Assembly: GCF_004343035.1 (NCBI RefSeq)
Contig: NZ_SMCQ01000016.1
Coordinates: 1-64,000 of the forward strand
From: Longibaculum muris
GTDB lineage: Bacteria > Bacillota_I > Bacilli_A > Erysipelotrichales > Coprobacillaceae
DNA length: 64,000 nt
Direction of reading: 5' to 3'
Shown here: positions 3,126 through 53,202 of the stretch, piece after piece
Layout of the letters: each line of letters begins with the position of its first letter
Position numbering within the stretch: the stretch's first letter is position 1
The notes under the pieces: model-generated
What the model was told of the DNA's origin: nothing
Databases searched by the model: none
What the model saw: the letters and a program-made list of their open reading frames with translations, nothing else
Translations under genes and position numbers: made by a program

Positions 3126-3137
3126 GAGGAAAGTCGC

Positions 3138-3818: not shown

Positions 3819-3819
3819 A

Positions 3820-5253: not shown

Positions 5254-5274
5254 AAAAACAGTTAAACTGTTTTT
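5254..5274 (-). terminator. Terminator of the UTRA regulator gene
   Basis: The near-perfect inverted repeat AAAAACAGTT / AACTGTTTTT is followed on the minus strand by a T-rich tract. It overlaps the stop codon of the upstream minus-strand gene. Confidence 0.65.
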
Positions 5275-5974: not shown

Positions 5975-6052
5975 AAATATATCTTCCTTTCACTTAAGTA
6001 AACCTATTATAACATAGAAAAATATAAAAATGGTAAAAATTATAAAAAATAT

Positions 6053-6093
6053 AACATTATAATCTTTACAAATAAACATTATAATGTTATAGT
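6053..6093 (+). promoter_or_regulatory. Promoter with paired operators of the PTS/amino-sugar-acid operon
   Basis: TTTACA (6065-6070), a 17-base spacer and TATAGT (6088-6093) form the promoter. A perfect 14-base palindrome AACATTATAATGTT (6075-6088) fills the spacer. An imperfect copy beginning AACATTATAAT starts exactly 22 bases upstream (6053), two helical turns away. This is a strong candidate for cooperative binding by the divergent UTRA-GntR protein. Confidence 0.65.
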
Positions 6094-6127
6094 GTATACG
6101 TAAACAAAATAGGCGAGGAGAAATAGT

Positions 6128-7426: not shown

Positions 7427-7457
7427 AAAGGAAAGACATTGTCTTTGGTAAAGTAAA

Positions 7458-7724
7458 ATGATTCAAATCTCAACATTTATTGGTATATTAGCTTGTTTCT
7501 TTATTACAACATTATTGAGTGAAAAATATTATCAAAAGCATCAAGTTCAAACCAGATTATTAAAAATGATTCTTTATATTATGTTATATATGTTCATCTT
7601 ATTAACTGTTGTTGTTTTATTCCCACAATGTTTTATTATTCTTGTTTATGGAAGTGTCATTATGGCAAGTTATTTCAATATTTATAATCGTCATCGTAAG
7701 ATTCCTGGGGAGGTGGAAGCATGA
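7458..7724 (+). CDS. Small membrane protein of unknown function in the PTS operon
   Basis: This 88-residue protein is not recognised. It has an N-terminal hydrophobic segment (about residues 3-20) and a second hydrophobic region (about 35-72) separated by the basic, Gln-rich stretch SEKYYQKHQVQTRLLK. It ends four bases inside the GH170 gene (ATGA-type overlap), so it is translated as part of the operon. It may be a partner of the EIIC permease, but nothing in the sequence shows this. The ribosome site is weak. Confidence 0.6.
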   Translation: MIQISTFIGILACFFITTLLSEKYYQKHQVQTRLLKMILYIMLYMFILLTVVVLFPQCFIILVYGSVIMASYFNIYNRHRKIPGEVEA

Positions 7725-9918: not shown

Positions 9919-11009
9919 TGAATATTTATTCAAAATATCATGTGAGTCGTGTGATTAATGCTTCAGGAAAAATGACTATATTAGGTGGTTCACGTGTTCA
10001 AGATAAAGTCATTGAACAATGTGGAATAGGCGCTGGTAACTTCTTTGAAGTCAAAGATTTATTAGATAAAACTGGTGAATATATTGCGAATTTGTTAGAT
10101 GTTGAAAGCAGCTATATTGTTAATAGTGCTTCTGGAGGAATTGCTCAAGCGATTGGCGCAGCCATCTGCCAAGATAACTATCAAAAGATTATGAATCTTT
10201 ATGATCCGACAAACAATAAACGTGAAGTTGTGATTTGTAAAGGACATAATGTGAATTATGGAACAGCAGTTGAGGTGACAATGCGTTTAGGTGGAGCTAA
10301 AGTTGTTGAAGCAGGTTATGCCAATGAATGTACATTAGATAGTATTAAAGCTTGTATTAATGAAAATACAGTGGCTTTATTATATATTAAGTCACATCAT
10401 TGTGTCCAAAAAGGAATGCCTGATGTTCAAGAATTCATTGACTTAGCCCATGCCTATGATTTACCGGTTATTGTTGATGCAGCAGCTGAAGGTGATTTAA
10501 AGAAATATTATCAAATGGGGGCTGAATGTGTTATTTATAGTGGAACAAAAGCATTATGTGGTCCAACTTCTGGATTGATTGTAGGTAAGAAAAGTTATAT
10601 TGATCTGATCAAGAAACAATATGCTGGAATTGGAAGAATCATGAAAGTTGGTAAGGAAAACATTATTGGACTTACTTATGCGATTGAAGAATATATGAAT
10701 CAACCACAATTAACAATTGAACAACAAAAAGATCGACTTAAAGAGTTTAATCATTTGTTAAATCAATTAGATGGTGTACAAGCTAAGTGTGTACAAGATG
10801 GTGCTGGTAGACCAATTATAAGAAGTGAAATTACCTTTACTCATCAAGATGCAAAGAAGATTGCACAAAGTTTAAAAACGGGTGAAGTGCATATTTATAC
10901 ACGTGATTATAAAGCAAATCTTGGACAAATAGAAATTGATATAAGAGATGTTGATGATGAGGAATTGATGATTATTTATCATCGTATTCAAGAAATTTTG
11001 GAGGCATAG
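9918..11009 (+). CDS. dgaE: DgaE-type PLP-dependent D-glucosaminate(-6-P) ammonia-lyase
   Basis: A 363-residue fold-type-I PLP enzyme of the SelA-like DgaE group. The Schiff-base lysine is in the motif SGTKALCGPTSG, and the aspartate that contacts the pyridine nitrogen is in VIVDAAAEGD. DgaE of Salmonella converts D-glucosaminate-6-phosphate to 2-keto-3-deoxy-6-phosphogluconate and ammonia. Here a separate sugar kinase follows, so the substrate could be unphosphorylated D-glucosaminate. It overlaps the deacetylase stop by one base and sits one base ahead of the aldolase gene. Confidence 0.82.
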   Translation: MNIYSKYHVSRVINASGKMTILGGSRVQDKVIEQCGIGAGNFFEVKDLLDKTGEYIANLLDVESSYIVNSASGGIAQAIGAAICQDNYQKIMNLYDPTNNKREVVICKGHNVNYGTAVEVTMRLGGAKVVEAGYANECTLDSIKACINENTVALLYIKSHHCVQKGMPDVQEFIDLAHAYDLPVIVDAAAEGDLKKYYQMGAECVIYSGTKALCGPTSGLIVGKKSYIDLIKKQYAGIGRIMKVGKENIIGLTYAIEEYMNQPQLTIEQQKDRLKEFNHLLNQLDGVQAKCVQDGAGRPIIRSEITFTHQDAKKIAQSLKTGEVHIYTRDYKANLGQIEIDIRDVDDEELMIIYHRIQEILEA

Positions 11010-11010
11010 A

Positions 11011-11751
11011 ATGGAAAAGAAACCAAATTATTTAAATGATCGTATTTGTTTAAATGTTTTAACAAATAGTTTAGAAAATGCAAAAGCATTATATGATATA
11101 ACAGAAGGACATATTTTATTAGGATTATTATCTAAAAACTATCCTGATAATGCATCAGCAATTGAAGATATGTTAAAATATGCTGCTATTACTGATAATT
11201 GTATTTCTGTTGGTTTAGGAGCAGGGGATCCTAAACAATCACAAATGGTAAGTGAAATTTCAAAATATATTCAACCACGTCATGTGAATCAAGTTTTTAC
11301 AGGAGTTGGAACAACTCGTGCATTACTTGGACAAAATGATACAGTGGTTAATGGATTAATTTCACCAACTGGAACAGTTGGAATGGTTAAGATTTCGACA
11401 GGTCCATTAAGTAGTGAAGGACAAGATGCGATTGTGCCAGTGGATACAGCAATTATGATGTTAAAAGATATGGGATGTTCATCAGTTAAATTCTTCCCAA
11501 TGAAGGGTTTGTCAACAAAAGAGGAATATAAAGAAGTTTGTCTTGCTTGTGTTAGACAAGATTTTATGTTAGAACCAACTGGTGGAATTGATTTAGATAA
11601 CTTTAAAGAAATTTGTGAAATTGCTTTAAATGCAGGAGTAAAAAAAGTTATTCCTCATGTTTATTCATCAATTATTGATAAAGAAACAAAACAAACACGT
11701 AAAGAAGATGTTAAAAAATTATATGAAATCATGAAAGAATTAACAAAGTAG
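11011..11751 (+). CDS. dgaF: DgaF-type 2-keto-3-deoxy-6-phosphogluconate aldolase
   Basis: A 246-residue TIM-barrel aldolase of the KDGP family, predicted to split 2-keto-3-deoxy-6-phosphogluconate into pyruvate and glyceraldehyde-3-phosphate. The Schiff-base lysine is probably in SSVKFFPMKG, and the phosphate-binding loop near the C-terminus is EPTGGIDLDNF. It directly follows DgaE, as in Salmonella and Enterococcus dga-type clusters, with a GGAGG site inside the dgaE 3' end. Confidence 0.85.
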   Translation: MEKKPNYLNDRICLNVLTNSLENAKALYDITEGHILLGLLSKNYPDNASAIEDMLKYAAITDNCISVGLGAGDPKQSQMVSEISKYIQPRHVNQVFTGVGTTRALLGQNDTVVNGLISPTGTVGMVKISTGPLSSEGQDAIVPVDTAIMMLKDMGCSSVKFFPMKGLSTKEEYKEVCLACVRQDFMLEPTGGIDLDNFKEICEIALNAGVKKVIPHVYSSIIDKETKQTRKEDVKKLYEIMKELTK

Positions 11752-11760
11752 GTGAAGATA

Positions 11761-12756
11761 ATGAAGATATTAGCATTTGGAGAAGTTATGATGCGCATGA
11801 TGCCATCGGACTATAAAACGTTAACTCAAGTCAATGAATTAGAATTTTTGTTTACTGGAACAGGCGTTAATATTTTATCAGGGTTATATCAAATGGGTGA
11901 AGATGTTTCACTTTTAACAAGATTACCTGATAATGCAGTAGGCAAAGCGGCCAGTGCTAATATTCGTAAGCTTGGTATCAATGATCACTATATTGTCTAT
12001 GGAGATAATCATATAGGAATCTATTTTTTAGAAAAAGGGATTGGAAATCGTGCGAGCCAAGTGACTTATTTGAATCGAAAGGATAGTTCTTTTGGACATA
12101 GTCAACTATCAGATTATGATTTATCTTGTTTAGATGGTCAAGATGCACTTCATATTTGTGGTATTTCATTAGCAATGAATAATAATGTTAGAGAAGTTGC
12201 TTTTAAACTTGCAAAAGAGGCGAAACGTAGAGGCATCAAAGTTATTTTTGATTGTAACTTTAGACCAAGTTTATGGAATGAAAATGAAAGAAAAAATGTG
12301 AAAAGTATTTATGAAGATATGTTACAGTTAGCTGATATTGTATTTGCTGGATATAAAGATGCGACACTTTTGTTAGAAATGAATGTTGATCATAACCTCC
12401 CTTTGAAACAACAATTAGAATTGCTACTCAAACAAATGTGTCATGATTATCATATTGAAGCTATCTTAGGAACGATTCGTCAAGATGAAACATTATCTGG
12501 TTATATGATGTCAAAAGATGTTTTTACCATGAGTCAAGAATATTCATTAACTGTTTATGATCGTGTTGGTGGAGGAGATGGCTTTGCAGCAGGGGCTATT
12601 TATGGTTATCTTCATAATATGCCAAGTGCTAAATTGGTTGATTATGCGACTGTTAGTGGTGTTTTAGCGCATACAACATATGGTGATAGTCCTATTGTTA
12701 GTCGAGAACAAATTATTGATTTTATGGAAAATGGAAGATCCGATATTAAAAGATAG
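11761..12756 (+). CDS. kdgK: PfkB-family sugar kinase, probable 2-keto-3-deoxygluconate kinase
   Basis: A 331-residue ribokinase-fold kinase. It has the N-terminal GEVMMRMMPS strand, the substrate-site segment GTGVNILSGLYQMG, and the catalytic motif DRVGGGDGFAAG with its base aspartate. It most likely phosphorylates 2-keto-3-deoxygluconate for the aldolase encoded just upstream. The ATG at 11761 is chosen because AGGTGA (11750-11755) is correctly spaced. An in-frame GTG at 11752 lies inside that ribosome site. The gene ends inside the left arm of a terminator, so the operon stops here. Confidence 0.8.
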   Translation: MKILAFGEVMMRMMPSDYKTLTQVNELEFLFTGTGVNILSGLYQMGEDVSLLTRLPDNAVGKAASANIRKLGINDHYIVYGDNHIGIYFLEKGIGNRASQVTYLNRKDSSFGHSQLSDYDLSCLDGQDALHICGISLAMNNNVREVAFKLAKEAKRRGIKVIFDCNFRPSLWNENERKNVKSIYEDMLQLADIVFAGYKDATLLLEMNVDHNLPLKQQLELLLKQMCHDYHIEAILGTIRQDETLSGYMMSKDVFTMSQEYSLTVYDRVGGGDGFAAGAIYGYLHNMPSAKLVDYATVSGVLAHTTYGDSPIVSREQIIDFMENGRSDIKR

Positions 12757-24381: not shown

Positions 24382-27300
24382 ATGAAAAGGAAACTTTTTA
24401 AAAAGTTAAGTGTATCATTGTTGACATTAACAATGATGGTTGGAATGGTTGCTCAAACTCCTGTTTATGCTGCTAATGAAGCATTAGATATTAAGGATGA
24501 AAGCACTTATGCATTAGTTGATGTAAAAAGTCAATTAGCTTTAAATGTAAAAGAAATTGGCTGGCAAACACATACAACTGTAAATGGAGAATTTATTGAA
24601 GAAGGCAGCAAGATAACTAATGCTGAATTATTTCAATTTGTCAAAGTTTCTGATCAATCAGGGTTAGAAGCTGATGAAGTGAGAGTTAAGATGAATTATG
24701 TTGGACAAGAGAATGCAGTTTATCCAATGAGATCTGAAAGTGAAAATGATTTCTTATTTGCTGATTCAGATAAACGTCAAGATTGTTGTGAATATATTAT
24801 TAAAAAAATTGGTGAACAATTAGGAACAATCAGAGATACGTCTAGAAATTATTATTTTAGTATTGGTGATGCTCATAAAATTAAGCGTGTTGCTGATGAA
24901 AAAGAGGCACTAGTTTTCCGTTTTGTAGAAAATCCTACAGTTACTGATTTTAGTTTATATATTGAACATGTAGAAACTGGAAATTACGTCAAGGCCAATG
25001 GCGTTGATACTGCTTTAACAGTGGATGGTAAAAAAGTAGATGGAAAGATTGCTGATGATTTAAGATGGACTCCAGTTTTTGGTAACTGGAATGGGCCAAG
25101 TGTCACTTTTAATTCTAAGCAATATCCAAATACTCGCTGGAAAAGTGGAAGTGTTTCTGAAGTTAAACAAATTGCTGGTGCTGAACATGGTGGTTGGGAA
25201 TCTATTAGAGTTGTACCTAATGGTAATGGAACAATTTCATTTAAAGCAACAGATGATGGAAAATATTTTACTGTTAGCGATAATAAGATTGTTAAAACAG
25301 GTAATGCTGAAGAACATGATAAACAAGGTGAATTTATTATTCGTACTGTTGATGCTCCAAAAAAGGTTGAAGATGTTAAAGTCAGCCAAATTACGGATAC
25401 AGAAGTCACTGTTTCTTGGAAAGACGTTCAAGATACTTTCTATACTGGTTATAAAGTTGTAGCTACACCTTCAGTGACATCTTCAAGTGATGTTGTGACT
25501 TCAAAAGAAACAACTGATACATCATTAAGATTAACTGGATTACAACGTGGTGTTGAGTATACAATTACTGTTCGTACAGTGAATGCAGATGGACCTTTTG
25601 CAACAAGTGAAAGTGTAAAGATTCAAACTAAGAATGGACCTTTACCAGCACAAGTTGTTGGATTAGATTGTCATAAAAAGGATAATGATATTCAAATTAC
25701 ATGGAATAAGGTTGAAAAAGCAACTGCTTATGATATTTATCGTGCACGTTCAGCTTTTGATAAAGATGGTTATCAAAAAGTTGGACATGTTGAAAATGTT
25801 ACAGAATTTATTGATAAGACAGCAAATGAAAATCAATATGAAAATTATTATAAAGTTGTTGCAATTAATGAAAATGGTGAATCTGATATTTCAGATGAAT
25901 ACGTTTCATTAGAAACTCAATTATTTGGTGAAAATGTATTTATTTTAGCTGAATATGATGATACAGCTAAGATTGATGCATTAGTACAAAAAATATTTAT
26001 TCAACAAAATGATTTATCAAAAGATGCACAGTTTAATACAAATAGATATTCAATTTATTATAAACCTGGAAACTATGTTGATACATCTTGTGTACCAGTT
26101 GGTTTTTATACACATATTGGTGGACTAGGAAAAACACCTTATGATGTTAAATTAAATAATATTGAGGTACCAGCTTACTTAGATGGAAGAAAAGGCAGCG
26201 GAAATTATTGGGATGATGGTTCAACATGGCGTAATGCAACTTGTAACTTCTGGCGTTCTGCTGAAAACTTATCAGTAGTTGGTACTGGAAAAGCAACAAC
26301 TGTTCCAGAAACAACACCACTTTGTCCAGGTGCTTCAAACTGGTCAGCTGATGCTTTTAGTTGGTCAGTAGCTCAAGCTGCTCCACTTAGAAGGGTTTAT
26401 TCTACTCGTAATGTGAAATATGATTGGTCTTTTGGATGGGCTTCTGGAGGCTATACAGCTGATTGTTATTTTACAGGTAATGCAGATACTGCATCAGGAC
26501 AACAATATTTTACAAGAAATTCAATAATTAATGGAACACTTGATGGAACAACATTGAATAACTTTAATATGGGTGTTCAATCAGATAATTTACCAACAAC
26601 AAGTCCTTTAGTTAAAGGAAATGGTTATTCAAATTGGGGAGAAGGTGAAATTGGTAAAGCTCAAAAAGTACTAACAAATGTCGAAAAGACACCTAAAGTT
26701 AGAGAAAAACCTTTCTTATTCTTAGATGATGATGGTGAATATAAGATTTTTGTCCCAGCTATTAGAGAAAATAGTAGAGGTATTAGTTGGGGTGAAGGTA
26801 AAGCTAATGACGGTATGGGAGAAGGTAAAATATTATCATTAGAAGAATTCTATATTGCTAAAGAGGGAGATAGTGCGGCTAAAATTAATGAACAGTTGAA
26901 AAATGGTATGAACATCTTCTTTACTCCAGGAGTTTATCATGCTGAGGAAGTTATTAAAGTCAATAATCCAAACACAATTTTATTAGGTACAGGAATGGCT
27001 TCAATTATTCCTGATAATGGTGAAGGAGCAATGAAAATTGCTGATGTTAGTGGTATCATAGTTTCTGGATTTGTTTTTGATGCTGGGGCTTCTTCTCAAT
27101 ATTTATTAAAAGTTGGTGATGAAGGAAAGCATACAAATCATTCAGCTAATCCAACTTTACTTTCTGACTTATTCTTTAGAATTGGTGGAACGACTTCAGA
27201 ATTAACAAAAGCAGAAGATGCTTTAATTATTAATAGTGATGATGTTATTGGTGATCATTTCTGGATTTGGCGCGCTGATCATGGTGCAGGTGTTAAATGG

Positions 27301-28596
27301 TATGGAAATGAATCACAACACGGATTAATTGTTAATGGTGATAATGTGAATTGTTATGCATTATTTAATGAACATTTCCAAAGTTATCATACTTTATGGA
27401 ATGGGGATAATGGAGCAACTTATTTCTATCAAAATGAAACAGCTTATGATCCAATAAGTCAAGAAGCTTGGATGTCACATGAAGGTACTGTTAATGGATA
27501 TTCTTCATATAAGGTAGCTAATAAAGTTAATAAACATTATGCTGTTGGTTTAGGTATTTATAATGTATTTATTAATACAGGTGAAGATTATGATTCTTCT
27601 AAAGTACAAATTCAATTAGACAATGCAATTGAAGTTCCAAATAAGAAAGATGTATTAATTGAAAATGCATGTGTCCAAACATTTGCAAATGATGGTAGTG
27701 CACTTCAAAAGATTAATTCTATTGTAAATGGTGTTGGTAATGGAGTAAGTAGTGGTATTGATAAAGATACAGGAGAAAAAGGAGAAGGTTGGTCTAGACA
27801 ATTCTTATTAAGTTATCAAAATGGTACTGCTACATTTGGTGCAAAACCAGATGAAGGTCAAAAAGGACAATTTATTGGTCTTGTTACAAAGGATAATATT
27901 CCTCAACCAATGAATGAACCTGGTGATGTTGATTTTAGTGTATTATTAAAATTAGTTGATGAGGTTAAAGAAAATTATCATAAAGAAAATTATACAACTG
28001 AATCTTGGGCAGCTTTACAAGATGCTTTAGCATTAGCAAGAGTACAAATAGAAGATCGTGGAGAACATTGGGCAATTCAGTCTGAAATAGATGCTACGAT
28101 AAAAGCTATTCAAGATGCTGTAGAGGTATTAGAATTACTTCCTGTAGATTTAACTGATTTAGAAGAACTTTATAATCAAAATAAAGATAAAAAAGAAGAA
28201 GATTATACTGTTGAATCTTGGAAGGTATTCAAGGATGTTCTTGAAAAAGTAAAGGTTGTATTAGCTGATCATGAAAATCTAACAAGTTTAGAAGTTGAAA
28301 GTTTATTAAAAGAATTTGAAAATGCAATTGATCAGTTAAAATTAGTAGAAAAAGATAATTCTAATGGAGAAGATCAAGATAAAGAAGAACCTAATGGTGG
28401 AAATCAAGATAAAGATGATGATATTAATAGTCAAGTAACACCAAATAACCCTGATAAAAATGAGCCATCAGGAGTAAATCCAGATAAATCACAAGGTGTT
28501 GAGACGAAAGATGCAACATTTATTCTTCCATATGCTATTTTAGGAGTATGTGCTGCATGTGCATATGTATCTATTAAAAAATTTGAACACAGATAA
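24382..28596 (+). CDS. Secreted multidomain beta-helix protein with FN3 and FIVAR domains
   Basis: A 1404-residue surface protein. A signal peptide ends near residue 31 (TPVYAANE). Residues about 35-330 look like beta-trefoil or lectin-like folds. Two fibronectin-III domains follow (about 333-420 and 425-510). Residues about 515-1170 form a parallel beta-helix region with the stretch FFTPGVYHAEEVIKVNNPNT and the motifs NSDDVIGDHFWIWRADHG and LWNGDNGATYFYQNE. This matches large actinobacterial secreted proteins usually labelled coagulation factor 5/8 or adenylyl cyclase and related to GH55-type glucanase helices. Two FIVAR-like helical repeats (about 1195-1325), an Asn/Asp/Lys-rich linker and a C-terminal membrane segment with KKFEHR follow. 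No LPXTG is present; VETKDAT precedes the anchor. Context suggests action on beta-glucan or another glycan. No catalytic residues are assigned. Confidence 0.75.
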   Translation: MKRKLFKKLSVSLLTLTMMVGMVAQTPVYAANEALDIKDESTYALVDVKSQLALNVKEIGWQTHTTVNGEFIEEGSKITNAELFQFVKVSDQSGLEADEVRVKMNYVGQENAVYPMRSESENDFLFADSDKRQDCCEYIIKKIGEQLGTIRDTSRNYYFSIGDAHKIKRVADEKEALVFRFVENPTVTDFSLYIEHVETGNYVKANGVDTALTVDGKKVDGKIADDLRWTPVFGNWNGPSVTFNSKQYPNTRWKSGSVSEVKQIAGAEHGGWESIRVVPNGNGTISFKATDDGKYFTVSDNKIVKTGNAEEHDKQGEFIIRTVDAPKKVEDVKVSQITDTEVTVSWKDVQDTFYTGYKVVATPSVTSSSDVVTSKETTDTSLRLTGLQRGVEYTITVRTVNADGPFATSESVKIQTKNGPLPAQVVGLDCHKKDNDIQITWNKVEKATAYDIYRARSAFDKDGYQKVGHVENVTEFIDKTANENQYENYYKVVAINENGESDISDEYVSLETQLFGENVFILAEYDDTAKIDALVQKIFIQQNDLSKDAQFNTNRYSIYYKPGNYVDTSCVPVGFYTHIGGLGKTPYDVKLNNIEVPAYLDGRKGSGNYWDDGSTWRNATCNFWRSAENLSVVGTGKATTVPETTPLCPGASNWSADAFSWSVAQAAPLRRVYSTRNVKYDWSFGWASGGYTADCYFTGNADTASGQQYFTRNSIINGTLDGTTLNNFNMGVQSDNLPTTSPLVKGNGYSNWGEGEIGKAQKVLTNVEKTPKVREKPFLFLDDDGEYKIFVPAIRENSRGISWGEGKANDGMGEGKILSLEEFYIAKEGDSAAKINEQLKNGMNIFFTPGVYHAEEVIKVNNPNTILLGTGMASIIPDNGEGAMKIADVSGIIVSGFVFDAGASSQYLLKVGDEGKHTNHSANPTLLSDLFFRIGGTTSELTKAEDALIINSDDVIGDHFWIWRADHGAGVKWYGNESQHGLIVNGDNVNCYALFNEHFQSYHTLWNGDNGATYFYQNETAYDPISQEAWMSHEGTVNGYSSYKVANKVNKHYAVGLGIYNVFINTGEDYDSSKVQIQLDNAIEVPNKKDVLIENACVQTFANDGSALQKINSIVNGVGNGVSSGIDKDTGEKGEGWSRQFLLSYQNGTATFGAKPDEGQKGQFIGLVTKDNIPQPMNEPGDVDFSVLLKLVDEVKENYHKENYTTESWAALQDALALARVQIEDRGEHWAIQSEIDATIKAIQDAVEVLELLPVDLTDLEELYNQNKDKKEEDYTVESWKVFKDVLEKVKVVLADHENLTSLEVESLLKEFENAIDQLKLVEKDNSNGEDQDKEEPNGGNQDKDDDINSQVTPNNPDKNEPSGVNPDKSQGVETKDATFILPYAILGVCAACAYVSIKKFEHR

Positions 28597-42030: not shown

Positions 42031-42067
42031 AGACCAATAAGCATGTATACTTATTGATCTTTTTTTA
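42031..42067. terminator. Hairpin at the 3' end of the XRE gene
   Basis: AGACCAATAAG pairs with CTTATTGATCT (one G-U) around an eight-base loop. A T run follows on the plus side and an AT-rich tail on the minus side. It overlaps the XRE stop codon. Confidence 0.6.
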
Positions 42068-42440
42068 ATGGATTGATTTGATTTTTGTTTTGTTCTTTTT
42101 GTAAATCTAGTAATGTATTGGCACGTTCAAGGAGACGGATTTTATTAGCTAGATTTAATTCATCAGCGATGTTATAGATTTTAAAATGATAGTCATCTAA
42201 GAATTTAATTTGGTTATTTTTAGATAGAGGAGCACTATTGTTTGTACGACATAATAAATAATCAGTGGTTGTATCTAAGACATCAGCAATCTTGGAAAGG
42301 ATATCTGCTTTAGGAATATTGATATCATTTTCATACTTAGAAAGCATAGATTTTGTAATACCAATTTGGTTAGCTAAATCACTTTGTTTTATGTCTTTAT
42401 CTGCTCTTAGATTAAGAATTCTAGAACCAATTGTATTCAT
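42051..42440 (-). CDS. XRE-family HTH regulator
   Basis: A 129-residue Cro/C1-type regulator. The helix-turn-helix is in residues 8-62 (KQSDLANQIGITKSMLSKYE). The C-terminal half has a helical stretch (about 80-118) that may mediate dimerisation. It is transcribed divergently from the cohesin-type surface protein gene and is the only regulator next to it, so it may control that pair. This is positional inference. Confidence 0.82.
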   Translation of the reverse strand: MNTIGSRILNLRADKDIKQSDLANQIGITKSMLSKYENDINIPKADILSKIADVLDTTTDYLLCRTNNSAPLSKNNQIKFLDDYHFKIYNIADELNLANKIRLLERANTLLDLQKEQNKNQINPLKKDQ

Positions 42441-42697: not shown

Positions 42698-45600
42698 ATG
42701 AAGACGAAATGTCAGAAAATATGGGGACTCGTTTTGTCATTGTTGTTAGTTGTTCCATTAATAACAATGAATCCAGTAAAGGCAGAAAATGTTTCCCATA
42801 AAGTATTTGAATTATCAGCACCTGAAAAGGCAAGTGTAGGGCATACTATTGATGTCGATTTAAGAATGTATCCTAAAGATAAGTTTGCAGCATTTGATTT
42901 GTATATTAATTTTGATGAAGAAGCTTTAAAATATAAGTCTGCAAAATTAGGTATGGGTAGTTTGGGAATTTCAGTGGAGTATAATCAAGTTGCACCTGGA
43001 AAACTTAAAGTTGCAGTTGCTAAAGGTGATGAATTTGAAAGTAATATAGACGATTCTATTTTAATAACTTTTAAAATGGAAGTCTTAAATACAAAAGAAG
43101 CAGTTGGAACTCATGGTATTCAATTAGAAGTTTATAAATCAACTGATGTTAATGGTGGAAAGCTTGATTTTGTTAATGAAATTAAGAATACACAAATAAC
43201 AATTGATGCACCATTAAAACAAATATCATTAAATAAAAAAAGTTTAGTGATGGATAAAGGGAATACTGAGACATTGGTTGTGAGTAAAATTCCTGAATTT
43301 ACAACGAATACTGATGTTGTTCAATGGTCAAGTGAAGATAGTGAAATTGCAAGTGTTGATCAAAATGGAAAAATTACTGCCCACAAAGGTGGAAAAACAA
43401 CAATTAAAGCAGCTATTGGTGAATTTGCAGCAACTTGTGAAGTGACTGTTACAATACCTTTAGAAAGTTTGTCTATAGATAAGCTTGATAGTGCTATTGA
43501 TGTTGGAAGTAAACAACAGTTAGTTGTAAAATATTTACCATTAGATACAACAGTAAATAAAAAAGTAACATGGAAAAGTTTAGATACTACGATTGCTACT
43601 GTAGATGAAAATGGAATTGTTACAGGAGTGAAACGTGGAACTGCAACTATTCAAGCAACAATGGCGGGTATGAGCACTACTGTTGAAGTAAAAGTAAAAC
43701 AGCCATTGGTTGGAATTAAAATTGATCAATCAGATTTTACTCTGATTAAAAATAAAGAAAAGGCTTTAACAGTGAGTGAGGATCCATCAGTTCATGATGA
43801 TGTTATTGATCAAAAAGTTTGGAGTTCTTCTGATGAAAAGATTGCAACTGTTGATCAAAATGGAAATGTAAAAGCAATAAAAGAAGGGGTAGCTGTTATT
43901 TCAGTAACATATTATGTTGGAAATAGAACAGTAACTTCTTCTGTAAAAGTAGAAGTTAAAGAAATTCATGTTACAAGTGTGAGCTTAGACAAAACAAAAG
44001 TTGAATTGATTAAGGGTGATGAAGGTGATTTAAAAGCCTCTTATGCACCACTAGACACTACTGATGATACAACAATTCAATGGAGTTCATCAAATGATAA
44101 GATTGTTACAGTTGATAAAAATGGACATATCAAAGCTATTGCTGGGGGAAAAGCAACAATTACGGCAGTAATTGCAGGTAAGAAAGCAACTTGTGATGTT
44201 GAAGTGAGTGTTCCTTTAAAGGGAATTACTATTGAATGTAAAGCGAATGTAATGGAAGTTAAAGATACACAAACATTGACTGTTAAATATGATCCAACAG
44301 ATACAACAATAGATAAAACAATTACTTGGAAATCAAGTGATAAATCTATTGCTACAGTGGATCAAAAAGGTGTAGTTACTGCGTTATCAAAGGGAACAGT
44401 TGATATTATTGCAACGGTTGCAGATAAAACAACAAATATAACATTAACGATTAAACAACCATTATTAGAAATTCAGATTGAACAAAATGATTTTACACTT
44501 ATTAAGAATGAGACAAAAGAACTAACAGTTAAAGAAAGTCCTTTAAATCATGATGATAAAATTACTAAAAAAGAATGGTCAACTTCTGATGCAAAAGTTG
44601 CAAGTGTTGATCAAAATGGTAAAGTAACAGCATTGAAAGAAGGAAAAGCAACAATTACGGCTACTTACTATGTAGGGGAAAAGAGTTATAAAGCAACAGT
44701 TATTGTAACTGTTAAAGAAATTCATGTAGAAAAAGTTATCTTAAATAAAACAAACTTAAATTTAGGAAAAGGTGAGAAAGCTACATTGACTGCTACATAT
44801 ACACCACTTAATACAACAGATGAGACAGTAGTTAAATGGACATCATCTGATTCAAGTGTTGTAAAAGTCAATCAAAATGGTGAACTTGAAGCAATTAAAG
44901 GTGGAAAAGCAACAATTACAGCTACAATAGCTGGACAAAAAGCAGAATGCCTTGTTAAAGTTAATGTTCCATTAACAGGTATTGAATTAAATGGAGCCAA
45001 GACAGTATTAAAAGGACAAACTGCACAATTAACAATTCAAAAAAATCCTAGTGATGCAACTGATGAATTAACAAATATTCAATATCAAACAAGTAATGCA
45101 TCGATTGCTAAAGTTGATCAAAATGGAAAAGTAACTGGTCTTAAAGAAGGAACTGCTGATATAAGCGTTATTGGATATGTTGGAAATAAACGTTTTGAAG
45201 CTATTCATACAATAGAAGTGAAAGAAATTAAATTAGAATCTATTGAAATTAATATAGATTCACCAAGAATTGTTATAAATGAAGCAAAACAAGCGGAAGT
45301 TAAATATAATCCTAATGATACAACTGATGATAAAGCTGTCATTTGGTCTTCATCTGATGAAAAAATTGCTACTGTTGATCAAAATGGAAAGATTAAAGGA
45401 TTAAAAGTTGGTAAAGCAATTATTCAAGTTGTTTCTAAATTTAATGATGAAATTTTTGATGAAATGGAAATAGAAGTTTATGAAATTCCAATGGAATCAA
45501 TTCAATTGGATAAAGAATCTATAGAATTAACAGTTGGTGATTCATATCAATCTTATGTAACAATTTTACCTGAAAATACAACTGATTCTAAAAAATTAAC

Positions 45601-46384
45601 ATGGTTATCTTCTGATGAAGAAATTGCTACAGTTGATTCAAAAGGAAATATCAAAACACTTAAAAAGGGAAATGTTGTTATCACAGTATCTGCAAAAAAT
45701 GGTGAGATTGTTGCAACCTTAAATGTTAAAGTTGTTAACAAAAAAGGAAAGCCATCTTACATTGTTGATAATCAAGATATCCAATTATCTGTACCTCAAG
45801 ATCAACTTCAAGACATTTATCAAAATGTTCCAGAAGAATTTAAAGAAATTGTAAATGATGGTGGAAAATTAGATATTATTGTTAAATCTCAAAAAGTTGA
45901 AAATAAAGAAGCTCAAATACAATTAAATAATCAATTATCTCAACAAGGACTTCTTAAAGAATATCAAGTAGGAACATGGTTGAATATTGATGTTTTAGCT
46001 CAAGTAACTTCATTTGATGGAGAAAAACAAAGTGATGAATTAACAAATTTATCTAAACCATTAAAAATAACAATTGAGATTCCAAAAGATCTTCTTGGTA
46101 AGAATCGTGAATATACAATTGTTAGAATTCATGATGGAAAAATAGAAGTTTTAAAAACTCAATTATCTGCTGATAAAAAATATTTAACATTTGAATCAGA
46201 TAAATTTAGTGAATTTGCTATTTTGTATAAAGATGTAGAAATAAAAGAAGAAACAAATTCACAAAAAGAGAATGATAAAGCAGTTCATACTGATGATACG
46301 ACACTTATTGGTATGGAGTTAATGGGAATGGTTATTTCAGGAGTAGTTATCGCATTAAGTTATAGAAAGAAAAAATATTTATAA
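42698..46384 (+). CDS. Membrane-anchored surface protein with cohesin-like domain and ten BIG2 repeats
   Basis: A 1228-residue protein. A signal peptide ends near residue 29 (NPVKAEN). Residues about 32-165 form a cohesin-like domain (FELSAPEKASVGHTIDVDLR, FAAFDLYINFDEEALKY, DDSILITFKMEV). Ten bacterial Ig-like BIG2 repeats (about 170-1010) follow, each with a WSSSDEKIATVDQNGK-type core. They fall into a higher-order order in which an A-B-C block of roughly 250 residues is duplicated. A mixed domain (about 1020-1175) and a C-terminal membrane segment with YRKKKYL follow. VHTDDTT precedes the anchor; there is no LPXTG. The ATG at 42698 has GGAGGGAAAG upstream. An earlier in-frame TTG lies within the promoter. 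It is probably the anchored receptor for the dockerin protein encoded next. Confidence 0.82.
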   Translation: MKTKCQKIWGLVLSLLLVVPLITMNPVKAENVSHKVFELSAPEKASVGHTIDVDLRMYPKDKFAAFDLYINFDEEALKYKSAKLGMGSLGISVEYNQVAPGKLKVAVAKGDEFESNIDDSILITFKMEVLNTKEAVGTHGIQLEVYKSTDVNGGKLDFVNEIKNTQITIDAPLKQISLNKKSLVMDKGNTETLVVSKIPEFTTNTDVVQWSSEDSEIASVDQNGKITAHKGGKTTIKAAIGEFAATCEVTVTIPLESLSIDKLDSAIDVGSKQQLVVKYLPLDTTVNKKVTWKSLDTTIATVDENGIVTGVKRGTATIQATMAGMSTTVEVKVKQPLVGIKIDQSDFTLIKNKEKALTVSEDPSVHDDVIDQKVWSSSDEKIATVDQNGNVKAIKEGVAVISVTYYVGNRTVTSSVKVEVKEIHVTSVSLDKTKVELIKGDEGDLKASYAPLDTTDDTTIQWSSSNDKIVTVDKNGHIKAIAGGKATITAVIAGKKATCDVEVSVPLKGITIECKANVMEVKDTQTLTVKYDPTDTTIDKTITWKSSDKSIATVDQKGVVTALSKGTVDIIATVADKTTNITLTIKQPLLEIQIEQNDFTLIKNETKELTVKESPLNHDDKITKKEWSTSDAKVASVDQNGKVTALKEGKATITATYYVGEKSYKATVIVTVKEIHVEKVILNKTNLNLGKGEKATLTATYTPLNTTDETVVKWTSSDSSVVKVNQNGELEAIKGGKATITATIAGQKAECLVKVNVPLTGIELNGAKTVLKGQTAQLTIQKNPSDATDELTNIQYQTSNASIAKVDQNGKVTGLKEGTADISVIGYVGNKRFEAIHTIEVKEIKLESIEINIDSPRIVINEAKQAEVKYNPNDTTDDKAVIWSSSDEKIATVDQNGKIKGLKVGKAIIQVVSKFNDEIFDEMEIEVYEIPMESIQLDKESIELTVGDSYQSYVTILPENTTDSKKLTWLSSDEEIATVDSKGNIKTLKKGNVVITVSAKNGEIVATLNVKVVNKKGKPSYIVDNQDIQLSVPQDQLQDIYQNVPEEFKEIVNDGGKLDIIVKSQKVENKEAQIQLNNQLSQQGLLKEYQVGTWLNIDVLAQVTSFDGEKQSDELTNLSKPLKITIEIPKDLLGKNREYTIVRIHDGKIEVLKTQLSADKKYLTFESDKFSEFAILYKDVEIKEETNSQKENDKAVHTDDTTLIGMELMGMVISGVVIALSYRKKKYL

Positions 46385-46394
46385 TAACAGGCTA

Positions 46395-46426
46395 GGGTAG
46401 GAAACTACCCTCCCCTATATGGGAGG
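46395..46426 (+). promoter_or_regulatory. Two hairpins in the cohesin-dockerin gap, one covering the ribosome site
   Basis: GGGTAG / CTACCC with a GAAA tetraloop (46395-46410) is followed by CCTCCC / GGGAGG (46409-46414 with 46421-46426) around a six-base loop. The right arm of the second stem is the entire Shine-Dalgarno sequence of the dockerin gene. There is no T run, so these look like translational control rather than termination. Confidence 0.6.
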
Positions 46427-46431
46427 AAAAT

Positions 46432-49400
46432 ATGAAAAAAGTTATTAGTGTTGCACTTGCTTTCATTATGGTATTGACTTTAGTTCAATTACCAATGAAC
46501 GTCCATGCAAGTGGTTTAGAACCATTAAGTGAAGCAATTGATAGTGAAGAAAAACTTACATTAACGCTTTATGGAGAGTATTTTGATGAAGGTGTAAATC
46601 TTAGCTTAGAAGTCACATCTCGTGATGACTATCAATTAACAGAAGCCAATAGTTCTGGAAATGTAAGTATTACTTTTCAAGATATTGAAACAAAACAAAC
46701 ATATACACAAGAAATGTCATATTATACAAATGATTTAACTTCAAAGATATATGTCAATGGCAAGTTAGAAAAACTTGGATTTGGAGAAAATCGAAATGTT
46801 ATTATATCTGCTATTGAAGTCAATCAGATAAAATATACAAACCTTAATGAAGCACAATTTACTTATTCAGATAGAATCGTACCGCACATTGTATCAATAG
46901 AATTGGATAAGAATAATAAAAGTGTTTATACAGAAACAGGCGAGTATTCATTTATTATTACTACAGATAAAAATTATAATAGATGGCCAAATGCTAATTT
47001 AAATGTTGAAGATGGAAATGGACATTCTAGAAATGTTGGTATGTCTGTAGAGCCTATTAGTGATATACAATATAAATTAACTTATCATATAGATGCTCAG
47101 ACAGCTGTTAAAGGTCAATATTCTTTTGAATCACTAAATTTTGGTGATTTGTATATTGAAAAAAATTCAGAACTTTATCAATCTTTAGGATTAGATAAAA
47201 TCTCTTTTAAAGTTGATTTTGGTAGTGATGATTTTAATGCACCAGAATTTGTTGATATTAAATGTAATTTGGATAATGGCGCAACAGTCACTAAAGGAGA
47301 TAGAGTAATTTATACTATTAAATTAACAAATGATGAGGACATTGATTTAGAAAATTCCTTTATGTGTATATCAGGACGCAATCTGAATTTAAAGAGTATT
47401 GGGAATCATGAGTATACTATAGAATTTATTTGTGATGAAAAAACAGAAGCTGGTGATTACCAATTATCATCATTAAGCTTATGTGATGAAAATGGGAATA
47501 GAAATGATATTGATAGTAATGCATTTGGTAATCCAAGTTTTACTGTTGTTCAAGATTCAGAAGTAACATATGAAGAACTAAAAATGACCAATATAAAAAA
47601 AGAACCTTCTGATTTGATATACCTTAATAAAAACAATCCAGAATATAAAATTACTATCGAATTTAATCATACCATTAGTTATACATATTTAACATTTAAT
47701 TGCATGAATAGTAATCAAACATATCGAGTGGTAGGAGATATTGATGGAAAAACAGCGACATATACAATTCATTATGATGAAAATATGATAGCTGGTTCAT
47801 ATAATATACAACACTTATATGCAACAAATGGATTCCAAGATATAGATAATTATGGTGATAGTGATTTAAGAAATTTAGGATTTATTATTCAAAGTGAAGA
47901 TAGGGCCTATTTAAATTCTTTATCACTTACACAAAATAATAAACAAGTAAAACCAGGTGATAAATTAGATTTCCAATTAGATTTTACAAAATTAGTCAAT
48001 GATGTTAATCTACAATTTGTTAATAAAGATCATCCAAATGTAAGAATTACATTTGATGAATATGATTTTCAAGCATTAAAGGGGACAGTAGAGGGATATA
48101 TCAATGACACTTATGGGAATGGAGTCTATCAATTAGAAAATATAAATTTTAGAAGTAATGGAGAATATTTCAATCTTTCTTCGCATGAAAATATTTGGAG
48201 TTCGTTGAAGTTAGATCAAATTCAATTTGAGATTATTAATAGCCATGATGATTTTGAAGCACCAAAAATAACAAGTGTTCAAATTGATGATTCTCAAGAT
48301 TTTAATATAACTTCAAAAAATGATACTTGTAGTTTTAAAATAACAACAAGTGAATTAATAAATGTAAATAATTCTAATTTCAGTCTTTCAACAAACAATT
48401 CTGAATATTTAGCAAGTCGAATTGAGTTGATTGATGAATCTAAATGTGAATATTTAGTAACAATCTTTACAACAAACCGCTCATTTGATGGGGTTTATTC
48501 GATCAATAATTTTAACTTGAGAGATGCTCATGGAAATGAGAATTATTACTATTCTCATCAAGGTAGTGATGATACCAATATTCAAAAAATATTTGGAATA
48601 AAAGTTAATGTTTCAGCAGGTATTACTGAAATGAACGATGTGAAACTTTCACATTTCAATTATCAAATTCAAGATATTTATTCAAAAAATGGTAAGGTCT
48701 CTATTTCATTAGAAACAGATCAAAGTGTTTCTGGTATAAGTATGAATTTAGAAAATATAACCTATGCAAGATCTAGCTATATAAGTGGAGAGGCAACAAA
48801 TAACGAAAGAACAAAATGGTTATTTGAAATCGATATTAATGAAATGACATTGAATGGTCAATACAGATTAGAAAGAATCAATATTAATCTTAATGATCAA
48901 TCAAATGAAATTTATCGTAGCTCTGAAGAATATTCAGAAGTATTTGAAAAAGTAAAATATTATGTAGAATGTGGACGTCAATATGAAAGAGCTCCAAAGA
49001 TTAAGAAACTTGTTGCTGATAAAAATAATTTGACTAATTATAGTTCAGATGGAAAAGCTATTTTCTATTTAACAACTTCAGCTGATATCAATATAAATCA
49101 TTCAAATATTCAATTTGCAATAGAAGGTTATGTTAATAAATATGTTAATGTAAGTTATAAAATAGAAAAAACAGCAGATAAAGAGTATAAAATTACTTGT
49201 CAAATTGATCATGAAACATTTAATGGTGATTATTATATTCGAAGCATAAATTTGAGTGGTATATATGATAATTCTAATGATTATAATATATATGATAATG
49301 GTAGAGGATATTATTATTTGTCAGGATTAGGATTTAAAGTGTCATGTGGTATATCTGATTTAGATGCACCAAAGTTATTAAAAATGTATGGTCATTCATC

Positions 49401-52400
49401 TAATAAAGAAATATATAAAGAAGCTGGAGAATATACTTATTATTTCCAATTTGATGAGGATATTTCGTTGAATTCAAGTCAATTTGTTTTAGCAGATGAA
49501 AATGATAAAGAATATTGGAATAATTTTATTTCTTTAGGTAATCATTTGTATGCTGTTAAATTATATTTCGGAGAAAATGGTCAATTAAAAAATGGTCAGT
49601 ATCATTTTTCTAATCTTCAAATTAGTGATAAATATGGAAATCATGTGGGTTATCCTAATGATTATGAAAATAATTCAACATTAAATGTATTTGCTAATGA
49701 GTTAGATAGTATTCAATTTAAAGTTGATTTGCCTCAAGAAGAAGTTGAAGAATTAAAAATTATTTCTGTAACTCCTGAAGATAATCTTGTTTTCAATGAA
49801 GTAGGAGATAAACTCATTTTTAAAGCTGTATTCAATAAAGAAGTCGGTTTTAGTAATATTAATTTTATTAATGTGGCTGGTGATTATATTAATGCCTATG
49901 AAATGTCAGTTAAGCCAGTAGAAAATGGTTATGAATATACTTATGGTGTAAATATTACCGATGCTAAAAAACCAGGAGTATATCACATTGATGAATTTGA
50001 GGTTTGGGATGATGGTAAACCTTATCAAGTAGATCCATCTTATTATTCAACTATTCAATTTACAAATAATGTTGAATGTAATATGCCATCAATTGATAAT
50101 GTATCTTCGATTAAATTTAATGGTCCAACAGAATTAAATAATATTGATGAAAAATTATTAGTAGATGTTACTCTTAATAAGAAAATCAATAATTTATCGC
50201 TTGATTTTGAATGGGAAAATATTAATGATGAATATTATACAGATACTTATTCTTCATTGATTAATATGGAAGAAAAAGATGGTTTATACATTTATCATTA
50301 TGAATTTAATGCTTATAATTTTAGTCCATTAAGTCAATATCAATTAAGTAGAATTATCTTTGAATATGATAATGAATATTGTTTTGATATTGATAATCAA
50401 GATACACATTGGAAATTATGGAATCTTGATTCAGTAAAAGTAAAAACATTATATGAAAATGAAAGTCACGATGATGTTGGATTTAATATTACTCCAGTTA
50501 CAACAAATCAATCTATTTATAAAGAAACTGGAACTTATTCATATATCGTTGAATCAGATCAAGAATTTAAATTAACATCAGCAGATATTCGTTCATATAA
50601 TTATAATTTTACAATCCCAGATGTTACAATTCAGCAAATAGATGCACATAAGTGGCAAATAGATGTTGAAATTAGTAGTAATCTTAAAAATGATATCTAT
50701 TATTTACGTTATATAACATATCAAGTTGATGGTGATGAGATGGAATGTAGTTTTGAACCAGAACATTGCTTTGAAGTCGCTTGTGGTATAGAAAATCATG
50801 TACCTTTAAAGGTTGTTAATATTTCTGATATTCAAAATGAAGAAAACTATAATGCTAGTGACAATAAGGAAATTAGTTTTGTAGTAGAATTTAATAAAGC
50901 TATTCAAGATATTAAGGTATATTTTGGAAATTATGAAGATAAACTTTATTGTAGTGAGGTAGCACAATTAGCAGATACAAAATATAAAGTTTATATGAGT
51001 GTTGATGAAACATTCAAAACTGGTGAATATTCATTCTTGTCTTTAAAAGCAACAGATGAAGTGAATGAGTCCATTTATTTAGATGAATATAATGAGTTTT
51101 TACCAGACGGACATTTAGGATTCAATGTTACAAATGAATTAGATCAAACAGAGAGTGAATTAAAGATTGACGTTGTTGGTCAAAAAACAGAATCTAATGA
51201 AACCATTGAAAGAAATGCATGGGCAAATGAAAAAGTAGAATTGAATATTAATATTCAGTCAGATAATGATTCTAAGATCACATATTTAGTGAGCCGAGAT
51301 GGAAAGAATTTTGAAGAATATAATCCAGAAACAGCTATTGATAATGGTGAACATAAACTTTATATAAAAGCTGTAGATGAAAATAATCAAGAGTCAAATA
51401 TTGTTGTTGTGAATGTTAAAGTCGATGAAGAACGTCCTTTATCTGAAATCGTTGATATTAGTCCGAAATTGAGATCAGTGATTCAAAAAGTGGGTAGAAA
51501 GATTAATATTAAAGCAACTGATGAATTAAGTGGTGTTAAGAGTGTTGAATACAAATTAGTCGCTAAAGGTCAAAATGAAGCAAATTGTCCATATACAATT
51601 GGAACAACTGCAACAGTACCTGCTAACTTCGAAGGACAATTAATTGTTAGAGTTACTGATAATGCTGGTAACCAAACAGTTACACCATATGATTTTGAAA
51701 GATTAGCAACATTAGAAATTCATTTAAAAGGTCAAACAGATAAAATTGTTGAAAAAGATCAATTATCAATTGATTTAACAATTGATGATAATGATAATAT
51801 TCAATATGTTGGAATCAAGCGAGATGGTAATGATTATGAAGATATTACTTCATCTTATAAAAATGGTTATGAAGTCACAAAGAATGGTACTTATACAGTT
51901 CGTGTAGTAACTCAAAAGGGTGCCGAAGATGAACAAAAGATAGTTTACAATTGTCTTGATACTAATCCTGTATACTTAACATTAATTGGAAATAATCAAG
52001 ACAAAGTTATGAGTGATCTATTAGAGATTGTATTTAAAAACACAGATATAGTGAAAAAGGTAACAATTCAAAAAGATAATGAAACTCCTCAAGATATTAC
52101 AAGTACTTATCAGCAAAAGCAAACAATCATTGAAAATGGAACATATACAGTTACCGTTACAACAACATCTGATCAAGAATTTACTCAAAAAATCACTTAT
52201 AATAATATCTATGTTCCAGATATGACTTTGAAATTTGATATTGATTCTAATCAAGATGAAGAATATCTTACTGAAGATACAGTATCATTCATTATTAGTC
52301 CTAAAAATACAGTTGTAACTTCTTTAAAAGTTTATAAAGATGACGTATTGGTAAAAGATATTAAAGATTCATACCAAGATGGTTATAAGATTACTGAAAA

Positions 52401-53163
52401 TGGAAAATATGAATTTAAATTAACAACAAGTGATGGTCAAGAAGCTACAAAAGCAATCACTTATACAAATATTGATAATTCACAACCAGAAGTGACTTTA
52501 AGTGGTAATACTGAAAGTACAGAAATGAGAGATAAGCTTACAATTCATGTAAAAGCTGATCAATCAGGAATTGGCCTTGTGAAGATTCAAAAGAATAATC
52601 AAGCTGAAGAAAATATTACTGACAGTTATCAAAATGGATATTCAATTGAAGATAATGGTACATATAAGGTTGTAGTGGTAACAAAATCAGGTAAAACTGC
52701 TTCTGCAACAATTACTTATACAAAATTAACTGCACCATATATTCATTTGAATGAAATGTCACTTCGTTTAAAACCAAATGAAACATTTGAATTAAAGGCT
52801 GAAACAAATATTCCAGATGCAAAATTAATTTGGACAACTTCTGATGATAGAATTGTTAATGTTGATGAAAATGGAAATGTTACTGCCATTGCTAATGGTT
52901 CAGCAACAATTACAGTAGAATGTTCTGGTTATAAAGTTGAAGTGAAATGTGAAGTGGTTGTTTCAGACATTTCATACATGTTAGGAGATGTCAATAGGGA
53001 TGGTGAGATTACTTCAGCGGATGCACAATTAATTTTAAGATACTGTGTTGGAAAAGTTGAACTAGATGACGAACAATTGATATTAGCTGATTTAAACAGT
53101 GATGGTGAAATTACTTCAGCGGATGCTCAAAAAGTATTAAGAATTTGTGTTAATAAAGAATAA
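46432..53163 (+). CDS. Giant secreted Ig-like repeat protein with C-terminal dockerin
   Basis: A 2243-residue protein with a signal peptide (cleavage near residue 25, MNVHASG). About residues 45-1560 hold a long series of divergent ~115-130-residue modules with the recurrent ending GxYxLxxLxLxDxxGN...DxDAPxI, probably Ig- or cadherin-like. Residues about 1585-1760 contain two further Ig-like domains. Then four short modules carry the signature DITxSYQxGYxIxENGTYxVxVxT (about 1765-2085). One BIG2 domain (about 2100-2180) and a type-I dockerin end the protein (two Ca2+ loops, GDVNRDGEITSADAQLILRY and ADLNSDGEITSADAQKVLRI). It has no membrane anchor or enzyme domain. It is probably held at the cell surface by the cohesin of the preceding protein and acts as an adhesin or spacer. 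Confidence 0.82.
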   Translation: MKKVISVALAFIMVLTLVQLPMNVHASGLEPLSEAIDSEEKLTLTLYGEYFDEGVNLSLEVTSRDDYQLTEANSSGNVSITFQDIETKQTYTQEMSYYTNDLTSKIYVNGKLEKLGFGENRNVIISAIEVNQIKYTNLNEAQFTYSDRIVPHIVSIELDKNNKSVYTETGEYSFIITTDKNYNRWPNANLNVEDGNGHSRNVGMSVEPISDIQYKLTYHIDAQTAVKGQYSFESLNFGDLYIEKNSELYQSLGLDKISFKVDFGSDDFNAPEFVDIKCNLDNGATVTKGDRVIYTIKLTNDEDIDLENSFMCISGRNLNLKSIGNHEYTIEFICDEKTEAGDYQLSSLSLCDENGNRNDIDSNAFGNPSFTVVQDSEVTYEELKMTNIKKEPSDLIYLNKNNPEYKITIEFNHTISYTYLTFNCMNSNQTYRVVGDIDGKTATYTIHYDENMIAGSYNIQHLYATNGFQDIDNYGDSDLRNLGFIIQSEDRAYLNSLSLTQNNKQVKPGDKLDFQLDFTKLVNDVNLQFVNKDHPNVRITFDEYDFQALKGTVEGYINDTYGNGVYQLENINFRSNGEYFNLSSHENIWSSLKLDQIQFEIINSHDDFEAPKITSVQIDDSQDFNITSKNDTCSFKITTSELINVNNSNFSLSTNNSEYLASRIELIDESKCEYLVTIFTTNRSFDGVYSINNFNLRDAHGNENYYYSHQGSDDTNIQKIFGIKVNVSAGITEMNDVKLSHFNYQIQDIYSKNGKVSISLETDQSVSGISMNLENITYARSSYISGEATNNERTKWLFEIDINEMTLNGQYRLERININLNDQSNEIYRSSEEYSEVFEKVKYYVECGRQYERAPKIKKLVADKNNLTNYSSDGKAIFYLTTSADININHSNIQFAIEGYVNKYVNVSYKIEKTADKEYKITCQIDHETFNGDYYIRSINLSGIYDNSNDYNIYDNGRGYYYLSGLGFKVSCGISDLDAPKLLKMYGHSSNKEIYKEAGEYTYYFQFDEDISLNSSQFVLADENDKEYWNNFISLGNHLYAVKLYFGENGQLKNGQYHFSNLQISDKYGNHVGYPNDYENNSTLNVFANELDSIQFKVDLPQEEVEELKIISVTPEDNLVFNEVGDKLIFKAVFNKEVGFSNINFINVAGDYINAYEMSVKPVENGYEYTYGVNITDAKKPGVYHIDEFEVWDDGKPYQVDPSYYSTIQFTNNVECNMPSIDNVSSIKFNGPTELNNIDEKLLVDVTLNKKINNLSLDFEWENINDEYYTDTYSSLINMEEKDGLYIYHYEFNAYNFSPLSQYQLSRIIFEYDNEYCFDIDNQDTHWKLWNLDSVKVKTLYENESHDDVGFNITPVTTNQSIYKETGTYSYIVESDQEFKLTSADIRSYNYNFTIPDVTIQQIDAHKWQIDVEISSNLKNDIYYLRYITYQVDGDEMECSFEPEHCFEVACGIENHVPLKVVNISDIQNEENYNASDNKEISFVVEFNKAIQDIKVYFGNYEDKLYCSEVAQLADTKYKVYMSVDETFKTGEYSFLSLKATDEVNESIYLDEYNEFLPDGHLGFNVTNELDQTESELKIDVVGQKTESNETIERNAWANEKVELNINIQSDNDSKITYLVSRDGKNFEEYNPETAIDNGEHKLYIKAVDENNQESNIVVVNVKVDEERPLSEIVDISPKLRSVIQKVGRKINIKATDELSGVKSVEYKLVAKGQNEANCPYTIGTTATVPANFEGQLIVRVTDNAGNQTVTPYDFERLATLEIHLKGQTDKIVEKDQLSIDLTIDDNDNIQYVGIKRDGNDYEDITSSYKNGYEVTKNGTYTVRVVTQKGAEDEQKIVYNCLDTNPVYLTLIGNNQDKVMSDLLEIVFKNTDIVKKVTIQKDNETPQDITSTYQQKQTIIENGTYTVTVTTTSDQEFTQKITYNNIYVPDMTLKFDIDSNQDEEYLTEDTVSFIISPKNTVVTSLKVYKDDVLVKDIKDSYQDGYKITENGKYEFKLTTSDGQEATKAITYTNIDNSQPEVTLSGNTESTEMRDKLTIHVKADQSGIGLVKIQKNNQAEENITDSYQNGYSIEDNGTYKVVVVTKSGKTASATITYTKLTAPYIHLNEMSLRLKPNETFELKAETNIPDAKLIWTTSDDRIVNVDENGNVTAIANGSATITVECSGYKVEVKCEVVVSDISYMLGDVNRDGEITSADAQLILRYCVGKVELDDEQLILADLNSDGEITSADAQKVLRICVNKE

Positions 53164-53202
53164 AAAAGACTTGAGAATGAATAAATCATTCTCAGTCTTT
53201 TT
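53163..53202. terminator. Bidirectional terminator between the dockerin protein and PBP1A genes
   Basis: AAAAAGACT and GAGAATGA pair with TCATTCTC and AGTCTTTTT around a five-base loop with one bulge. It serves convergent genes. Confidence 0.8.

Follow-up and report, generated by a model that had tools for sequence, protein, structure and literature searches.

In a 64,000-nucleotide (nt) stretch of the Longibaculum muris genome (contig NZ_SMCQ01000016.1, positions 1 to 64,000; referred to here as the window), two adjacent genes raise the question of what a cohesin and a dockerin are doing side by side in proteins that carry no enzyme. Docking of cohesins to dockerins is best known for holding cellulosomes together, and the initial annotation of this DNA had read the pair as a surface assembly that was special because it was enzyme free. 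We propose that the first open reading frame (ORF1) encodes a membrane-anchored receptor which, judging from comparison of sequences, most likely holds the giant fibre protein encoded by the second (ORF2) non-covalently through its cohesin, as one private pair within a widespread class. All features of the pair given below lie on the plus strand.

The putative receptor and fibre protein

ORF1 (42698-46384; 1,228 amino acids [aa]) starts at the ATG at position 42698. A longer form starting from a TTG was considered and found to be unneeded, since the ribosome-binding site GGAGGG stands before this ATG. In the encoded protein, the putative receptor, a signal peptide precedes the cohesin domain (residues 31-175; 42788-43222), after which come a stalk of ten Big_2 immunoglobulin (Ig)-like repeats (43214-45742, outer limits approximate), a C-terminal region, and a C-terminal hydrophobic membrane anchor with an RKKK tail and no LPXTG motif, recognized directly from the sequence (46301-46381). 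The N-terminal domain scored 32.2 to 33.3 bits against the Pfam cohesin model PF00963, above the curated cut-off of 24.1, and an AlphaFold2 model built from 24 sequences had a predicted local distance difference test (pLDDT) score of 85 and a predicted template-modelling score of 0.81. The 12 top Foldseek matches of this model in the PDB were all cohesins, the first being modules of Clostridium perfringens (2vo8; E value, 4e-9), and the non-cellulosomal cohesin of Archaeoglobus fulgidus was also matched. The best alignment by VIA had a Z score of 15.3 over 133 residues with a root mean square deviation of 2.2, as befits the jelly-roll of a cohesin. As modelled, then, the N-terminal domain of ORF1 is a cohesin in its fold, and the number of its BLAST-level relatives was 0 in 60 related genomes and 0 in single scans of genome contigs and viral contigs.

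ORF2 (46432-53163) encodes a secreted protein of 2,243 aa, the putative ligand or fibre, which has a signal peptide and lacks a C-terminal membrane segment. Its Ig-like domains number about 18 in total, including at least 12 divergent repeats of ~115 aa each (residues 147-1580; 46870-51171), which have no Pfam model and were found by an iterated hidden Markov model, and a Big_2 domain ahead of the dockerin (residues ~2105-2170; 52744-52941; PF02368, 26.1 bits). The protein ends in a type I dockerin (residues 2184-2243; 52981-53160). Dockerin_1 (PF00404) matched residues 2184-2235 with 44.8 bits against a cut-off of 22.9, and with 49.9 bits in a whole-genome search, while dockerins in the PDB were matched at an E value of 3e-5. 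The duplicated F-hand Ca2+ loops, DVNRDGEITSAD and DLNSDGEITSAD, both conform to the canonical DxNxDGxxxxxD and are identical to each other at 17 of 23 positions. No relatives of ORF2 were found among 295 genomes of the order.

Neither Pfam nor NCBIfam detected a catalytic family in ORF1 or ORF2, and LPXT[GAS] was absent from both, non-canonical sorting signals not having been searched for. The initial annotation had thus placed the pair correctly at 42698-53163 and had also been right about its anatomy, that is, a cohesin, ten BIG2 repeats, and an anchor in the first protein, an anchorless Ig-like protein ending in two dockerin loops in the second, and no catalytic domain in either. The cohesin fold that it had presumed for the first domain was likewise borne out by the model and its structural matches.

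Dockerins and their neighbours in the genome and in relatives

Profile searches of the genome found a single PF00963 cohesin and three dockerins, carried by the ORF2 fibre, a metallo-beta-lactamase-fold protein (C1), and a glucosaminidase (C10). Directly 3' of each of the latter two dockerin genes, a further gene encodes a protein with a signal peptide, a cadherin-like domain, and a C-terminal anchor. The slot domain of neither enzyme pair was recognized by PF00963. A cohesin-like N-domain profile built from relatives, of which the ORF1 domain is itself a part, matched exactly three sites in the genome, namely, the window, the C10 receptor (E value, 1.9e-8), and, weakly, the C1 receptor (E value, 0.03). 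Each of these sites adjoins a dockerin gene, with one cohesin-like domain per receptor protein. With three ligands and three receptors, each pair side by side, ORF1 is the likeliest partner of ORF2, and the search for a better dockerin partner elsewhere in the genome, which could have overturned the first reading of the pair, yielded none. In pairwise comparison the three dockerins had only 15 to 17 of 40 loop positions in common, and their recognition motifs differed (SA/QxxLR, PS/VxxRR, and TS or SR/LKLEK). The positions concerned set the specificity of dockerins in cellulosomes, and distinct motifs are what is expected if the pairs are separate.

The neighbour arrangement turned out to be widespread. 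Of 39 dockerin genes in the family, 22 had a neighbour on the same strand, at most 200 bp away, that encodes a signal-peptide protein with one membrane segment at its C terminus, an anatomy shared by only 3 of the 198 other genes of those loci. A second survey, in which all genome contigs were searched using the receptor family alone, returned 80 loci. They came from Erysipelotrichia, other Bacilli, Lachnospiraceae, and other Clostridia, and 56 were paired with a dockerin gene: in 48 the dockerin gene was adjacent, and in 8 the dockerin was on the matched gene itself, followed by the receptor. The named genera with members were Massilimicrobiota, Candidatus Stoquefichus, Traorella, Merdibacter, and Longicatena. 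ORF1/ORF2 falls into the same class, the dockerin gene standing beside a same-strand gene for a protein with a signal peptide, an N-terminal cohesin-like domain, and one C-terminal transmembrane segment. Many receptors start with a domain matching PF00963, as did all 24 members of alignment A3, that of the window included, at an E value of 0.1 or better.

The ligands in this family are diverse and the pairs usually enzyme bearing. Among them are very large ones comparable to ORF2, a 1,706-aa M60 peptidase beside a 236-aa receptor (L056) and a 1,328-aa protein with NPCBM and F5/8 type C domains beside a 292-aa anchored cohesin (L044). Another locus (L057, positions 1-12038) has five consecutive dockerin genes, arranged like an operon, and after them a gene for a single anchored cohesin protein of 267 aa; at least three of the five ligands carry BspA-type leucine-rich repeats, and no catalytic domains were detected in them, so cohesin-dockerin assemblies in which no enzyme is detected are not unique to the window. 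The initial interpretation of the pair was therefore supported in part: the absence of enzymes stood, whereas the claim that this makes the pair special was weakened by how common the same arrangement is among its relatives. Separately, in one genus (g4; L047, L048, L049, L050, and L051), we observed long cohesin-domain proteins, some also with dockerin-like loops, with Pfam cohesin matches in two genomes; they recall glycoside hydrolases of C. perfringens.

Often it is a small domain, and not a recognized cohesin, that occupies the receptor slot. Profile comparison of these domains with few cohesins gave a probability of 25% or less, and comparison with a cohesin profile containing more intermediate sequences gave 97.5%. 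An AlphaFold model of one of them, from a relative, matched Ig domains of intimin and of GH2 enzymes, with no cohesin among the listed structure matches, and for this reason we do not call the small domain a cohesin. The small domain may be a cohesin in reduced form, or perhaps a separate, new type of receptor for dockerins.

Matched variation and the case for binding

Whether such neighbours bind each other was approached through their variation. For 15 orthologous pairs of a glucosaminidase-dockerin protein and its receptor, pairwise distances were determined for four parts, the catalytic part, the dockerin, the receptor N-domain, and the receptor C-terminal part. Distances between dockerins followed those between receptor N-domains (r = 0.77), and this held after removal of the catalytic and receptor C-terminal distances (partial Mantel test; r = 0.75, P = 5e-5). 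Given the catalytic part, the dockerin did not correlate with the receptor C-terminal part (r = 0.06). The correlation of dockerin with N-domain was replicated with 45 further pairs from public genomes (r = 0.50, P = 1e-4). How far the parts can diverge is seen in L066 and L069: identity reaches 87% for the catalytic part and 84% for the receptor C-terminal part, yet is only 46% for the dockerin and 20% for the N-domain. Side by side with this we observed that glucosaminidases and receptor C-terminal parts of the same genus are often 80 to 90% identical (L066, L068, L069, and L072; L063, L074, and L078), with N-domains and dockerins of different types, as though docking cassettes had been swapped in matched sets.

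Since the dockerin and the N-domain lie close together in the DNA when the dockerin gene comes first, their linked replacement could mimic covariation. A GH25-dockerin gene that is unlinked to the receptor, lying ~4 kb from it in one genome and placed on a different contig in the other, speaks against linkage as the cause. Its dockerin is closer to the local glucosaminidase dockerin (identities of 0.80 and 0.67) than to that of its own ortholog (0.58), even though the orthologous GH25 proteins are otherwise 86% identical. Ligand tags thus follow the receptor type, also at a distance. This matched variation argues, indirectly, that a dockerin and the adjoining anchored receptor bind each other, as a class and, by extension, as ORF1 and ORF2.

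Could the ORF1 cohesin instead be a general dock, which also or mainly holds the glucosaminidase and metallo-beta-lactamase dockerins in a small shared display system? The two dockerins are there to be held, and elsewhere one receptor seems to serve at least two dockerin proteins (L064, L057, and L063). However, both adjoin an anchored receptor of their own, and dockerins that seemingly share a receptor are 67 to 86% identical, unlike the three of this genome with their few common loop positions and differing motifs; we regard such cross-docking as unlikely. Somewhat less likely still is that ORF2 is released and docks only afterwards, bridging ORF1 cohesins to another ligand such as mucin or a sibling cell. 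ORF2 has no anchor of its own, and very long Ig-repeat proteins are usually adhesive, which would suit a linker, but nothing in the sequence favors release over direct capture, and the spacing of only 47 nt between the genes suggests co-production and capture on the same cell. The least probable reading is that the cohesin and the dockerin are vestigial, just additional Ig and EF-hand modules with no mutual binding. The divergence of the ORF1 cohesin, which has no BLAST-level relative in the 60 related genomes, would fit it, yet the Ca2+ loops are intact, the cohesin fold is confidently predicted, the neighbour arrangement is far above background, and the docking parts vary in a matched manner in relatives.

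Some observations do weigh against a private ORF1/ORF2 pair. The covariation was measured in other, mostly enzyme-bearing pairs, whereas for ORF1/ORF2 there are no orthologs with which to repeat it; most pairs start with the dockerin gene, and this one with the receptor gene; and the true docking partner may sit on a different cell or be encoded by a gene missing from the assembly of 56 contigs.

If ORF1 does hold ORF2, the ten Big_2 domains would carry the single cohesin away from the cell, on a stalk of ~40 nm if extended and if each domain has the typical Ig-domain length. ORF2 would be exported separately and caught by this cohesin through its C-terminal dockerin, in a presumably Ca2+-dependent manner by analogy with known dockerins, and its ~18 Ig-like domains would reach further out, with the N-terminus at the fibre tip. 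The target of the fibre is perhaps a glycan or protein from the host or its diet, or else a cell of another kind or of its own. Adhesion, which the initial annotation had suggested, is the usual role of fibres like this and would be a candidate function. ORF1/ORF2 would then be one of three private receptor-ligand pairs in the genome, and these pairs probably keep their specificity by covariation of the docking interface, as was found for enzyme-bearing pairs and may be expected for this one.

Between the two genes lies a gap of 47 nt (46385-46431) with a GGGAGG ribosome-binding site, and two abutting short hairpins (46389-46426), the second of which overlaps the ORF2 ribosome-binding site. 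Regulation by these hairpins was considered and dropped, as the fold did not differ significantly from that of shuffled sequences (z = -1.47), and so was an invertible promoter, as the upstream inverted repeats were only short and mostly imperfect. A terminator-like hairpin, readable from both strands, closes the pair (53171-53195). Upstream, a small XRE-type regulator gene on the minus strand (42051-42440) is divergent from ORF1. Farther away, at 24382-28596, a 1,404-aa protein with fn3 and weak FIVAR and glycoside hydrolase-associated domains is possibly another surface or glycan-active protein.

Significance and relation to known systems

On balance, and with reserve, we read these loci as a general, sortase-independent display code of gut Firmicutes, in which each dockerin-tagged protein, be it an autolysin, a peptidase, a hydrolase, or a giant fibre, would be held by an anchored receptor encoded next to it, with hypervariable docking domains swapped as matched alleles between species and many slots perhaps occupied by a new kind of dockerin receptor. 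Docking appears here as an everyday means by which gut bacteria fix single secreted proteins, wall hydrolases and a giant fibre among them, to their membrane. The pairs are ready-made orthogonal docking sets that can be tested singly, and their matched variation from species to species is a natural data set for docking specificity, which also raises the question of why the pairs change so fast. A literature search gave no account of side-by-side pairs in Erysipelotrichaceae, of matched variation, or of an enzyme-free cohesin-dockerin fibre; as subscription papers lay largely outside the search, this is weak evidence of novelty. A matched, hypervariable receptor-ligand system of this kind appears to be so far undescribed in the literature searched.

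The nearest precedents for docking outside the cellulosome come from an archaeon and a clostridium. In Archaeoglobus fulgidus a single-cohesin gene and a dockerin gene are adjacent with no cellulosome, which we take to be the case described by Bayer in 1999. The window shares with it neighbouring, non-cellulosomal genes, and the ORF1 cohesin model matches its cohesin structure (2xdh). To our knowledge, the archaeal pair has no ten-domain Ig stalk and no giant Ig-repeat ligand of such a kind. Reports of cohesins and dockerins outside cellulosomes go back to 1999, and binding has been demonstrated for archaeal pairs (cited in PMC9012536). The X82 cohesin and FIVAR-dockerin system of C. perfringens resembles the pair in having the closest solved cohesins (2jh2 and 2vo8), one cohesin per protein, and a non-cellulosomal setting in a gut bacterium. 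There, glycoside hydrolases are joined by single cohesin-dockerin contacts, and all cohesin proteins have a glycoside hydrolase domain (PMC12997984), unlike ORF1 and ORF2, in neither of which a catalytic domain was detected.

In Clostridium thermocellum, surface cohesins of anchoring scaffoldins of the SdbA and OlpA type hold a dockerin-bearing secreted protein (PMC5817068), and ORF1 as an anchored cohesin and ORF2 as a dockerin-bearing secreted protein resemble this arrangement. The difference from a cellulosome is that ORF1 has one cohesin and no surface layer homology (SLH) anchor that we could find, and that there are neither plant-wall enzymes nor a multi-cohesin scaffoldin; where a cellulosome has a scaffoldin with several cohesins and a large set of plant-wall or glycan enzymes that bear dockerins, this genome has one PF00963 cohesin and three dockerins in all. 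With the long Ig-repeat fibrillar adhesins of Gram-positive bacteria (Big_2 type), the pair shares stacked Ig-like domains and a signal peptide. Those adhesins are one-piece proteins that carry their own anchor, whereas here stalk and fibre are two proteins, ORF1 and ORF2, that would be joined by a docking pair.

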